Shown: positions 625 to 5,146 of the stretch, in pieces
How the letters are laid out: each line of letters starts with the position of its first letter
How positions within the stretch are numbered: the stretch's first letter is position 1
Source of the DNA: Candidatus Eiseniibacteriota bacterium
GTDB lineage: Bacteria; JAFGKV01
Length of the DNA: 5,146 nucleotides
Reading direction: 5' to 3'
Assembly: GCA_025453925.1 (NCBI GenBank)
Contig: JALOPK010000264.1
Span: forward strand, 1-5,146
Translations under genes and position numbers: made by a program
Notes under the pieces: model-generated
What the model was told of the DNA's origin: nothing
Database searches by the model: none
Seen by the model: the letters and a program-made list of their open reading frames with translations, nothing else

Positions 625-3600
625 ATGGCGGCAAGAGGAAAGGACGCTCGAGCAGGCGTAGCGCTGGTCGCGGCTATCATTGGCCTTCTCAGTACCGCGC
701 GGCAGGTGATGGGGATTCCCTGGCCGATAGGGAATCAGGTCACGGCTTGGCCGATCAACAAGACCTATGGTGACTGGAATGGGTATGTGTTCGCGATCGA
801 CACGATACCGGCCACCCCAACTCACCCCGAGCAGTACCTTGCCAGTATTCGCTACCACACCGGAGTCGACATCCCCGCAGACTCCGGCACGGCGGTGCGG
901 GCGGTGTTCGCTGGATATGTGACGGGGGTCAAGCCTGCGATCGGGGATACGGGCTACGTTACCATCGCGAGGACGCTTGCAGGCAACCCATCCTGGCACT
1001 ACGGGCATGTGATGCCGTGTTCGACGCTGGCCGAGAGCACCTATGTTTCCTTCGGCGACACTTTGGGGTGGGTGGCGAAGTTCGGCAACGGCACCAACAA
1101 CCATGTCCACTTCTATCTGGAGGAGGAGGTCGGCGGCCTGACGCGGTCAGTGTGCAATCCTTTGGACAGCCTGGCGCCGACGCCAAGTCAGGATGTGCAG
1201 TTCTTCACGCGGTATCCGAATCTTGAGAGACATCAGTACAAGATCGACTACGTCAAGGACGGAGTTGAGACCGTTGCTGTCGCGAGATCCTTCTGGGATT
1301 CCACTCACCAGGAGTATCTGCTGAAGGATTCGGTGGATGTGGTAGTAGGTGCAATAACAGTGACCACAGGTAACTCCGATCCCGGCATCTATGGCCTCGG
1401 GTACTCTGTGTCGCCGGTTGACACCGGCGGGTCGATTCCGTACCGCAACATGCTGGTAATGCGAGGCCCGTTCGAGGTGGCGGACTCCTCGGCGTACTAC
1501 CGGACATTTGTCGATACGTTGGCCTACGCGGCCGACTGGCCCCTCTGCCGCTACATCGTGACCAACTGTGGGGACAGCATACCGAGTGCGACCAAGGGCA
1601 TCTCGAATGTGAGGGAGGACTGCTGGCCGACCAAGGTGGACACCAGCGGATCGGGAGTGGCGACGCGGAACGAAGAGGCACGGTTTCCGGATGGGTGGTA
1701 TGACGTGCTTCTGAAGGCGTGGTCGCACTCGGGAGACACTGCCGCGGTGCACGACACGGTGTTCGTGGGGAACTTCACACCCATCGTGAACCGAGCGCTG
1801 GTGCGGCAGACGAGAGGGGCCAGGGATTCGACGATCGTGTATGATGCCCACTGGGAGGACGGCGAGCTGGTTGTCGAGACGGACGAGCCGGTACGTTTGA
1901 TTCAGAACGACGTACTGGAGGCCGAGCTCACCTTCTCAGAAGGTCTTCACGACACCATCCAGGTAACCCTGGAGGGGCCGTACGCAGGGCTACCGTTTAC
2001 GACGGTGCGTTGGGACAGTGTGGAGCACCCCCGGGACCGGTGGGTGGGGCGGTATCCGCTGACGGCGTGGGACAGCATCCGGAACGTGATGGCAGGAGAA
2101 CGGCGGCTGGTGATCTGGGCGGAGGACGCGGTGACGCGGCACGCGCTGGACGCCAATCCTGCGACAGCAGCCTACTGGGACGGCGAGGCGGAGGAGTGGG
2201 TGGGCTACGAGGGGGACGACGGTCTACCCGGGCAGACAGGCGGGTACGACCGGGTGCATCGGCTGCGGATCGAGCCCTGGCGTGACGTGCTGCTGCACAT
2301 GGACGTGAGCGCGAGCGTGACGAATCCGCCGACTGGGGGGTGGGCGGCGTCCGCGTATCACATGGCGGACAGCCTGTTGGCGCGGATGAAGCAGGATCAC
2401 CTCGACAGCGGGCGGGCGGACACTTGGCGGGCGGGGGTCGCGCGATACTTCGGGAACACCGGAACGAACTCATGGGCGGTGGAGCTGCTGCAGGATCTGA
2501 GCCCGAACATCGAGGCGTCGCGGACCGCGCTTACCTACTTTGTGTCGCCGCCGGGGACGCCCTGCAGCGGCCAAGGAGAACCGCTGGACAGCGTGGTGAG
2601 GTATCTGGAAGGTCCGGCGACGCACAGTGCGCCGCGGCAGGTAGTGGTGTTCACGGACGGCGAGATGAATCGAGGCGCACCGAAGGCGGCGCAGGAGCGA
2701 TTGTGGGTGGAGGCGGCGACGGACAGTACGTTCGGCTGTGGGACCTACCTGTACGCGGTCATGCCTGCGGCGAAGGCGAACCTCTCTGATGGCATGTGCG
2801 CCGCGGTAGGACGGTCAGGGGGGAGGTACCTGACGATCCCCGAGGGGGACATGTTCGCGGGCTCTCCGGGCGGCGTGCTGTACGACGACCTGGTGCACAA
2901 CAGCCGGATCTACGAGGCGCAGGCGGAGGGCAGCGGCACGCGGTCGACGCACTGGTTTCGGGTGGATGCGATGACCTGGAGCCTGTTCCTGTTGGGGTCA
3001 TGGTGTGACTGGGGGCTGCAACTGGCCCAGGGCGAGCTGTTCTGCGGGGGGCTGCCGAAGGGGGGGCAGGAAGAGTGTGGGGAGTGTGGAGGTGGTACGG
3101 CGCAGGCGGGCGCAGATGCGCACGCCGAGGATGGCGACGGGAAGGCCCTGGATCGGGTCGCGGTGCCGGGAATCGGAGACGCATCCGCGGGACAGCGATC
3201 CCGTCCCCAGACCAGCGGGGAGCCTTCCGTACCCGATGCGACGCCGGATCGTGAAGATGATACCGCGAAGGCGCCTCCGACCCGGCTGAGCATGACGCTG
3301 TACGATGCGGATGGCGTGGTGGTGCCGCCGACCGGGACGATAGGGGGCGCCATCGCGTATTGGAGTCTCAGCCCGACTTCCGCCGACACGGGCATGTGGC
3401 GGGTCGAGGTGAGCGGAGAAACGGGACCGTATGACCTGCGGGTGAGCGGTCGAGGCGGAGTGCGGATCGAGCTAGCGGGGAAGCGTCTGGCCGGCGTGAA
3501 CATGGTATGCGACGTCAAGGTGCGTGTTGAGAGCGAGTGGCCGGTGCAAAGCCCGAGTTGGAGCCTGGTGGATGGCGAAGGCGCGACAGTAGCCGGTCTG

Positions 3601-5146
3601 AGCCTGTATGATGACGGGACGCACGGCGACGGCCTGTCGGGAGACGGGGTCTGGGGGGGAGCCCTGGCAGGTGTGGCCGAACCCGGGCTGTACCGGGTGC
3701 GCATGGCGGTCGTGGTGAACGGGATGGGGATCGAGCGGGTGACGGGCGAAGGGCTGTGGGTGACGCGGCCGGAGTTCGTGTTCCTGACGCCTGCCGCGGG
3801 GATCGACACGGTGGAGGCGAACTACCTGATCACGTGGGCGGACACCAGCGAGTTTGCGGCCGAGATCGGGCTGTACTACGACACGGACAGCGTAGGGGCT
3901 GACGGAACGCTGATCCTGGAGGGACGGGCTGAGGATGCGGACGGCGCCGGGGATCAGTACCTGTGGAACACGATGTCGGTGCCCGAGGGGCGGTACTGGG
4001 TGTACGCAGTGATAGGAGACGGGATTGGATCGCCCCGGACGATCTATAGTTCAGGGAGCTTGGTCGTGGAACGTGAAGAGCACCCGGGATGGCCTGTCAC
4101 CGCAGGCCGACAGATCCTGGCGCCGATCACGCTGGCGGATCTTGACGGGGATGGAGCCGAGGAGACGATAGTGGGGGCGGGCGACAGCCTCCTGTACTGC
4201 CTTCAGCACGACGGGACACACCGGGCGGGATTCCCATTCGCGTGCGCGGGATTGATCACTGCGGGGGCTGCGGTGGGCGATGTGGACGGCGATGGATTCA
4301 AGGAGCTGATTGCGGTGACGGGGGACTACTGGGGGCCTGCGTACGTGTGGGTGCTGGATGATGAGGCGAGCGTGGAGGCGGGATGGCCGGTTGAGATCAC
4401 TCAGGGAACGCGAAGCACGCCGCTGTTGGTGAACCTGGTGGGAGACGCGAGCAGTCCGCCTGAGATCGTGCTGGCGGGGTACGACAGTCTGGTGCATTCG
4501 TGGACCGGGGATGGGAGCGCAGTGTCGGGCTGGCCGAGGAAGTTGAGCGGTCCGATACAGGACAGTTCTCCCGTGGGCGGGGACATCGATGGGGATGGGC
4601 AGAACGAGGTCGTGGTGGCCCGCGCCGCGGCCTGGCCGACAGGGGTGATCACCGCGCTGGAAACGAACGGGACGATCAAGTGGGAGAAGGCGACGCCGAG
4701 CTTCATCTACTCCGCTCCCGCATTGTGGGATGTGGACAATGACGGGAAGCCCGAGGTGATCGTGGCAACGTCGAATCCGAATGCCATGGGACGTCTGTAC
4801 GTGCTGAACGGGGAGAACGGGAGTGACGCGCCGGAATGGAGCGGAGGAATCGAGATTGGCTATCGTGGTTCGTGGGCATCACCCGCGGTGGGGTATCTGA
4901 CCCTGGTGGATGAGCCGCGAATCGTGGTGGCGAGCAGGCGGAGCGATCTTCAGAGCGAGGTTCGAGCATACGGCAGGGACGGCACGTTGGTGTGGCAAGA
5001 GTCGGTATCCGGCTCTGTGATCAAGACCTCACCGGTGATCGCGGATGTCAATGGGGACATGGCGACCGAAGTGCTGCTGGTCACCAACCGGCGTCTCTGC
5101 GTGCTTGAAGGGGCCGATGGGGACACGATATCAGCGTACAACAAGG
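625..5146 (+). CDS. Giant secreted multidomain protein: M23 peptidase, vWA, Ig-like modules and FG-GAP propeller (3' end outside window)
   Basis: One frame is open from ATG 625 to the right edge: 1507 codons, no stop, C-terminus missing. The N-terminus looks like a Sec signal (R4, K6, R9, then hydrophobic 10-25). Residues about 45-180 form an M23 (lysostaphin-like) zinc peptidase domain: 'HTGVD' (H78, D82), 'YGH' (H128) and 'NHVHF' (H160, H162). M23 enzymes cleave peptide cross-links or glycine-rich peptides, and the intact site suggests activity. Residues about 170-550 are beta-rich, Ig-like. A vWA domain follows at about 555-745 (D560, S562, S564; 'FTDGE' with D678), then a PPC-like sandwich apparently split by a Cys-containing linker (about 797-887), an Ig-like module with an Asp/Gly loop (996-1010), a fibronectin-like module (about 1055-1150) and FG-GAP/VCBS repeats from about 1155. 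A cell-surface or extracellular role in adhesion plus proteolysis is inferred; substrate and anchoring are unknown. The peptidase and propeller calls are the surest. Confidence 0.9.
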   Translation, partial: MAARGKDARAGVALVAAIIGLLSTARQVMGIPWPIGNQVTAWPINKTYGDWNGYVFAIDTIPATPTHPEQYLASIRYHTGVDIPADSGTAVRAVFAGYVTGVKPAIGDTGYVTIARTLAGNPSWHYGHVMPCSTLAESTYVSFGDTLGWVAKFGNGTNNHVHFYLEEEVGGLTRSVCNPLDSLAPTPSQDVQFFTRYPNLERHQYKIDYVKDGVETVAVARSFWDSTHQEYLLKDSVDVVVGAITVTTGNSDPGIYGLGYSVSPVDTGGSIPYRNMLVMRGPFEVADSSAYYRTFVDTLAYAADWPLCRYIVTNCGDSIPSATKGISNVREDCWPTKVDTSGSGVATRNEEARFPDGWYDVLLKAWSHSGDTAAVHDTVFVGNFTPIVNRALVRQTRGARDSTIVYDAHWEDGELVVETDEPVRLIQNDVLEAELTFSEGLHDTIQVTLEGPYAGLPFTTVRWDSVEHPRDRWVGRYPLTAWDSIRNVMAGERRLVIWAEDAVTRHALDANPATAAYWDGEAEEWVGYEGDDGLPGQTGGYDRVHRLRIEPWRDVLLHMDVSASVTNPPTGGWAASAYHMADSLLARMKQDHLDSGRADTWRAGVARYFGNTGTNSWAVELLQDLSPNIEASRTALTYFVSPPGTPCSGQGEPLDSVVRYLEGPATHSAPRQVVVFTDGEMNRGAPKAAQERLWVEAATDSTFGCGTYLYAVMPAAKANLSDGMCAAVGRSGGRYLTIPEGDMFAGSPGGVLYDDLVHNSRIYEAQAEGSGTRSTHWFRVDAMTWSLFLLGSWCDWGLQLAQGELFCGGLPKGGQEECGECGGGTAQAGADAHAEDGDGKALDRVAVPGIGDASAGQRSRPQTSGEPSVPDATPDREDDTAKAPPTRLSMTLYDADGVVVPPTGTIGGAIAYWSLSPTSADTGMWRVEVSGETGPYDLRVSGRGGVRIELAGKRLAGVNMVCDVKVRVESEWPVQSPSWSLVDGEGATVAGLSLYDDGTHGDGLSGDGVWGGALAGVAEPGLYRVRMAVVVNGMGIERVTGEGLWVTRPEFVFLTPAAGIDTVEANYLITWADTSEFAAEIGLYYDTDSVGADGTLILEGRAEDADGAGDQYLWNTMSVPEGRYWVYAVIGDGIGSPRTIYSSGSLVVEREEHPGWPVTAGRQILAPITLADLDGDGAEETIVGAGDSLLYCLQHDGTHRAGFPFACAGLITAGAAVGDVDGDGFKELIAVTGDYWGPAYVWVLDDEASVEAGWPVEITQGTRSTPLLVNLVGDASSPPEIVLAGYDSLVHSWTGDGSAVSGWPRKLSGPIQDSSPVGGDIDGDGQNEVVVARAAAWPTGVITALETNGTIKWEKATPSFIYSAPALWDVDNDGKPEVIVATSNPNAMGRLYVLNGENGSDAPEWSGGIEIGYRGSWASPAVGYLTLVDEPRIVVASRRSDLQSEVRAYGRDGTLVWQESVSGSVIKTSPVIADVNGDMATEVLLVTNRRLCVLEGADGDTISAYNK
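757..1164 (+). other. M23-type metallopeptidase domain within the giant protein
   Basis: The domain begins with 'PINKTYGDW', resembling the lead-in strand of many M23 domains, and then has HxxxD (H78, D82) followed by 'GTAVRAVFAGYV', the usual strand after the first metal ligands. H128 in 'WHYGHV' matches the conserved Y-x-H, and H160/H162 form the HxH motif after 'GDTLGWVAKFGNG'. In the family, HxxxD and the second His of HxH bind zinc, while the other two histidines take part in catalysis. No key position is replaced. 'NPLDSL' just after HxH is the usual closing segment. A proteolytically dead relative would normally have lost one of these residues. Confidence 0.85.
1165..2274 (+). other. 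Ig-like / beta-rich modules between the M23 and vWA domains
   Basis: This stretch (about residues 181-550) has no catalytic motif. It reads as at least two beta-sandwich modules. The first ends with 'RFPDGWYDV' (353-361) and 'NFTPIV' (383-388), a pattern like bacterial Ig-like domains that describe 'build-up then DG-turn then final strand'. The second contains 'LTFSEG' (435-440), typical of bacterial Ig-like domains with a 'TFSE' strand, and ends near 'LDANPAT' (508-514) and 'WVGYEG' (525-530). Three cysteines (C308, C315, C333) sit close together in the first module and could form a disulfide after export. The boundaries are estimates, and the second module is less certain than the first. 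Confidence 0.5.
2287..2862 (+). other. von Willebrand factor A-like domain within the giant protein
   Basis: The segment opens with hydrophobic 'VLLHMDVSASV', containing the DxSxS metal-site motif (D560, S562, S564). It has an amphipathic first helix ('ASAYHMADSLLARM'), the 'GEPLDSVVRYL' helix after the loop that usually carries the metal-site Thr, and 'VVVFTDGEMN' with D678. It closes with 'GRYLTIPEG', the usual last strand. vWA domains bind protein ligands through a Mg2+ or Mn2+ ion at this site. Glu652 stands where the family normally has Thr, so metal binding may be altered. C647, C705 and C725 are in the domain and may pair after export. Confidence 0.72.
3013..3285 (+). other. Cys-containing, acidic low-complexity linker inside a PPC-like sandwich
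   Basis: Residues about 797-887 separate 'WSLFLLGSW' from 'LSMTLYDADG' (888-897). In PPC-like and related vWA-following beta-sandwiches these two strands are usually close together. The segment has C807 and a C-G-E-C pair (C818, C821), with C794 just before it. It continues as Ala/Gly/Asp/Glu/Pro-rich, probably disordered sequence. The reading frame stays open through it, and the neighbouring frames give Arg-rich or interrupted products, so it is not easily explained as a frameshift. It may be a flexible or disulfide-stapled insertion. Confidence 0.5.
4087..5146 (+). repeat. Seven FG-GAP/VCBS-type propeller repeats (protein-level, about 50 residues each)
   Basis: Loops of the type DxDxDGxxE end at E1179, E1227, E1328, E1377 and E1482. 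Two degenerate versions align at E1280 and E1430. Intervals are 48, 53, 48, 49, 53 and 52 residues, giving seven units, the number in an integrin-alpha-like seven-bladed propeller. Four units carry a Gly-[Trp/Phe]-Pro turn (1155, 1202, 1253, 1302). The acidic loops are calcium-binding in this family. The last unit is followed by only about 25 visible residues, so closure of the propeller cannot be seen. The repeat is conserved at protein level and only weakly at DNA level. Confidence 0.8.

Follow-up and report, generated by a model that had tools for sequence, protein, structure and literature searches.

What does the window—one whole contig (G000:C298) of 5,146 nucleotides—encode: a single very long protein or two genes joined by assembly, and what would such a protein do? 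An earlier note, drawn from the sequence alone, had described one open frame of at least 1507 codons that combines an M23 zinc peptidase, Ig-like modules, a von Willebrand factor type A (vWA) domain, a PPC-like sandwich, and a seven-unit FG-GAP propeller. The reading favored here, at a probability of about 0.6, is that of an exported multi-module, substrate-binding zinc peptidase in which paralogues have traded heads and bodies along module borders. The source genome is a metagenome-derived draft assembly of 3.9 Mb in 502 contigs that is 82% complete. Its phylum is small and is sampled by three species: the window genome (G000), a congener (G001), and a member of the sister genus (G002).

The frame itself is real and belongs to a very long bacterial protein, which is predicted by its signal sequence to be exported. 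It contains no stop and exits the contig at the 3′ end; at a GC content of 65%, the probability that a stop-free run of this length arises by chance is about 1e-20. Each of the remaining five frames is interrupted by 12 to 62 stops. Ten bases before its start ends a second gene, a β-propeller gene whose PQQ_2 match lies under the cut-off of that model and which shares 45.6% identity with the gene at the same place in the congener. Homologues of this partner directly precede, or overlap, the M23 gene in the congener, in a WOR-3 genome (L043), and in a UBP2 genome (L044)—four loci, including the window. The partner propeller protein may be a functional partner of the M23 protein. In the congener, a second and shorter pair of partner and M23 genes (L046, G001:C276, 3471-5404; 313 and 331 aa) adjoins the long pair; its M23 copy ends before any vWA domain and looks truncated. 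The features of the window are collected in Table 1.

Table 1. Features of the window, with nucleotide positions, strand, and the evidence for each assignment
Feature	Position	Strand	Evidence
Partner gene, BamB/PQQ-like β-propeller, C-terminal 203 aa	3..614	+	PQQ_2 E 3.9e-4; synteny
Giant ORF	625..5145	+	1507 codons, 3′ end missing
Likely Sec signal peptide	625..717	+	Basic start, hydrophobic core, ...QVMG/IPWP; by eye from sequence
M23 zinc peptidase domain (aa 77-166)	853..1122	+	Pfam E 1.9e-9; residues invariant; LytM and lysostaphin matches
β-Sandwich/Ig-like linker modules, M23 to vWA (aa ~170-549)	1132..2271	+	Homology of first part to L043 and L044
Junction	2266..2286	+	Left allied to G001:C276, right to G001:C224
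vWA domain, type A (aa 550-790)	2272..2994	+	Profile-profile match; MIDAS D560-x-S562-x-S564, S648 in Thr loop, D678
Cys/Gly-rich and acidic linker	3043..3270	+	By eye from sequence
Weak galactose-binding-like (hemicentin/IRG7 GBD) sandwich	3292..3579	+	Sub-threshold matches
Choice-of-anchor X domain (aa 992-1027)	3598..3705	+	NCBIfam NF041940 E 4.6e-9, above cut-off
Ig/Fn3-like module	3757..4074	+	Conserved in paralogues; fold inferred
FG-GAP β-propeller, units 1-7	4078..5145	+	FG-GAP_3 E 1.6e-18; five with DxDxDG-type Ca loop

The head of the protein is an M23 domain, as had been claimed. Its Pfam match exceeds the 28.7-bit cut-off and encloses the HxxxD and HxH motifs, and its profile matches the LytM and lysostaphin chains. 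From the sequence, H78, D82, and H162 are assigned as zinc ligands and H128 and H160 as catalytic residues; all five are invariant across four lineages. The linker modules that follow have no match in a Pfam search of the window. Their first part is homologous to the proteins of L043 and L044, where the next Ig module matches Big_5. Among 386 genomes, a small sample, a clear M23-Ig head is confined to the genus of the window, besides the distant heads in the one WOR-3 and the one UBP2 genome; it is absent from the sister genus (G002). The predicted structure of the M23-Ig part has a mean pLDDT of 28.7, too low for the model to be of use.

The vWA domain lies below the Pfam cut-off when the window is searched as a single sequence (E 0.27-0.29), as it does in all paralogues, which is why a profile of five family members was built. 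This profile was aligned by hhalign with genuine, Pfam-found vWA domains of the same phylum and matched them with 97.6% probability and a score of 83 over 168 columns. As controls, 100 column shuffles reached at most 3.3% probability and a score of at most 23, and an M23 profile reached 0.45%. The DxSxS motif and the later Asp are invariant in the five paralogues and fall on the MIDAS residues of the reference domains; where these have the MIDAS Thr, or close to it, the window has a Ser. The vWA claim thus holds by profile-profile comparison and by an invariant metal-site motif but not by single-sequence Pfam search. Searching PDB profiles with the vWA domain returned a chance-level match only, and its predicted structure, with a mean pLDDT of 31.5, is likewise not usable. 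Among 290 genomes, again a small sample, this vWA type is clear only in the phylum of the window, with three marginal matches elsewhere.

Between the vWA domain and the propeller, the proposed PPC-like sandwich gives way to a choice-of-anchor X domain, which is preceded by the weak GBD-like stretch (best E 0.0012 in one paralogue and 0.14 in the window). A PDB profile search with the post-vWA region gave no match. The propeller passes the Pfam cut-off as a tandem array of FG-GAP repeats, in which the Ca-loop motif survives in only five of the seven units on the contig. Seven units are visible because the contig ends there: the homologue G001:C224 continues past this point with an eighth unit, an Ig/Fn3-like domain, and a stop. 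Hence, the propeller of the earlier note is confirmed, whereas its count of seven is set by the contig end. With M23, vWA, and FG-GAP recovered by profile searches, the modules and their order had been read correctly in outline.

Relatives were sought in the window genome and 59 other genomes. The window genome has a single further copy, C413; the congener has C224 and C276, and G002 has several copies. No complete gene copy was recovered within one contig. Over 859 residues, C413 is 58.6% identical to G002:C235, in which the M23 head is replaced by an S8 subtilisin (Pfam E 4.8e-27) with D363, H418, and S598 in the expected motifs. C413 also shares 39% identity with the body of the window protein over window residues 875-1507. 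Since it resembles both, M23 and S8 heads are each found on homologous bodies. The contig of the S8-headed C235 breaks off right ahead of the propeller. The 114 bases at this end recur without change at the beginning of C279 (L051) and of C280 (L050), two propeller-Fn3 gene ends of G002 that are themselves 89.4% identical over 1889 nt. The shared 114 bases are a sign of recent duplication and account for the assembly break at this place. A further copy in G002 (L048, G002:C219, 10407-13807) is headless and overlaps, at its start, the stop codon of a gene for an SNF2-type helicase. It resumes in another frame at the propeller with the middle modules missing; it is probably decayed or rearranged.

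The favored reading can be spelled out along the chain. The Sec signal would export the protein, and the M23 head would cut peptide bonds, probably in glycine-containing cross-links of peptidoglycan or in glycine-rich proteins. Docking onto its substrate or onto a surface would fall to the body, which comprises Ig-like spacers, a vWA domain with a MIDAS, choice-of-anchor X, an eight-unit Ca-loop propeller, and an Ig/Fn3-like end; the vWA domain and the propeller presumably bind in a metal-dependent manner. The co-directional upstream propeller protein would act as its partner. The family appears small and, among the sampled genomes, confined to this phylum, and its M23 or S8 heads and vWA-to-end bodies would be swapped at module borders. 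Because homologous bodies are found under both M23 and S8 heads, degradation of a substrate that is external or bound to a surface is favored over remodeling of the cell's own wall. The suggestion of the earlier note of a surface adhesin that cleaves its own binding target would agree with the intact M23 and MIDAS residues and with the S8-headed homologous body. Its suggestion of a predatory protein was set aside, as no supporting evidence was found.

The ends of its homologues bear on a possible passage of the protein through the outer membrane. C224 and C413 carry neither a FlgD_ig sorting tail nor any other C-terminal sorting domain of T9SS type A cargo at their ends (the C terminus of the window protein is missing), despite 53, 67, and 69 FlgD_ig matches in G000, G001, and G002, respectively, many of them in long frames. 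An assignment to the outer surface is therefore uncertain, and the protein may stay in the periplasm. So many matches hint that proteins bearing a T9SS-like tail are numerous in this phylum. The absent tail also speaks for a different reading, in which the protein is a periplasmic remodeler of the cell's own peptidoglycan that is held by its body in an envelope complex with the BamB-like partner. The resemblance of the partner to BamB points the same way, as does the observation that M23 enzymes act mostly on peptidoglycan, often that of their own cell (PMC9662197). However, a homologous body joined to an S8 subtilisin in the sister genus is ill-suited to wall remodeling, the combination of vWA, propeller, and Fn3 is unusual among wall enzymes, and the distant UBP2 relative does end in a FlgD_ig/T9SS-type tail. 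The M23 head is, moreover, missing from G002 and, therefore, does not serve a core envelope function. Taken together, such a periplasmic role is rather unlikely, though it comes next after the exported, substrate-binding peptidase.

A trace of exchange that also raises doubt about the continuity of the gene is an abrupt switch of ancestry at nt ~2272. As far as residue ~549, the window closely resembles G001:C276, with 77% identity over the whole M23-Ig region and roughly 74 to 94% in blocks of 40 columns. From the vWA domain onward, it is near G001:C224 and no longer near C276, whose vWA domain is of another type. In the 90 nt to the left of the switch, the identity is 86% to C276 versus 28% to C224, and in the 90 nt to the right, it is 33% versus 88%. 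The switch coincides exactly with the Ig/vWA border. As the left half lies behind the orthologous partner gene, the window and the congener represent the same locus, and the body would have been replaced in the lineage of either the window or the congener.

Such a switch, found in a draft metagenome assembly of 502 contigs in which every paralogue contig breaks within these genes, is also what one would see if the frame were an assembly chimera, with the M23 head of one gene fused to the vWA-propeller body of a paralogue. A k-mer chimera requires a long identical stretch, but between C276 and C224, which serve as proxies for the parental types, the identical stretch is only 6 bases long at the border and nowhere exceeds 13, making this route unlikely. 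Furthermore, the window has no 21-mer in common with C413, the paralogue of its own genome, no left-over parental piece was found in that genome, and the frame stays open across a border that is also a domain border. A chimera is, thus, unlikely, and the concern raised earlier that two genes had been misassembled is largely, though not wholly, answered: the switch could still stem from a chimeric read or clone, in the window contig or at the contig end of the congener. The hybrid gene is most plausibly natural, with some reserve since the contig of the congener stops only ~75 residues into its vWA domain.

A more specific proposal may be ventured, at somewhat less than even odds: catalytic heads (M23 and S8) and vWA-to-end bodies would be recombined in frame at domain borders between paralogues, and one locus, marked by the partner gene, would keep its head while the body is replaced between species. 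If so, chemically distinct peptidases would make use of the same binding body, and a given peptidase would be re-aimed through replacement of its body. The division of labor between head and body would become testable, and a first functional handle would be gained on large exoproteins in a phylum that is uncultured and poorly known. Least credible of the readings, slightly behind even a chimera, is an adhesin whose M23 fold only binds and has lost its cutting activity: many M23-fold proteins are degenerate and the body looks adhesive, but none of the five catalytic or zinc residues is lost, and none varies among four lineages.

Compared with known systems, the window protein shares its catalytic domain and residues with the M23 peptidoglycan hydrolases LytM and lysostaphin; unlike it, proteins of that type bear LysM, SH3b, or Csd3-like modules. 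With the M23-Ig exoproteins of WOR-3 (L043) and UBP2 (L044), it has the upstream partner gene in common, and the heads are homologous (35-39% identity). In contrast to the window protein, neither of these was found to contain a vWA domain or FG-GAP repeats; the former continues with Fn3 repeats, and the latter ends in the FlgD_ig/T9SS-type tail. The L043 gene contains an in-frame TAG (4755-4758) within an Fn3-like domain, beyond which the same frame runs on without a stop for hundreds of residues. Candidate explanations are recoding, decay, and a sequencing error.

The novelty claimed for the architecture stands in part. No paper in the literature searched combines "peptidase M23" and "von Willebrand factor" with "FG-GAP." In the main text of a review of M23 peptidases, a term search found mention of neither von Willebrand nor propeller domains (PMC9662197). 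That review counts over 1,000 M23 architectures, so a new combination is to be expected in itself. If the architecture alone holds, it is one further entry among very many. Each module is individually known; what is new is this combination, and the module exchange is its more interesting part.

The general layout with exchangeable heads is, however, known from the CLCA metalloproteases (PMC3650047). Membership of the window protein in that family was rejected: no HExxH motif occurs in any family member examined, no CLCA or DUF1973 model matches, and between the vWA domain and Fn3 only the weak GBD-like match and choice-of-anchor X are found. The CLCA proteins are nevertheless the closest precedent. 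They are secreted, have bacterial and archaeal members too, and are built as CLCA_N–vWA–DUF1973–Fn3, with the head exchanged for M10 in Teredinibacter and for CHAP in Methanosarcina (PMC3650047). Both systems run from an N-terminal peptidase through a vWA domain and a β-sandwich to Fn3, and in both the heads appear swappable above a vWA/Fn3 body. The window family differs in that its head is M23 or S8 and in that an FG-GAP propeller is added, and the exchange proposed for it would parallel that of the CLCA heads.
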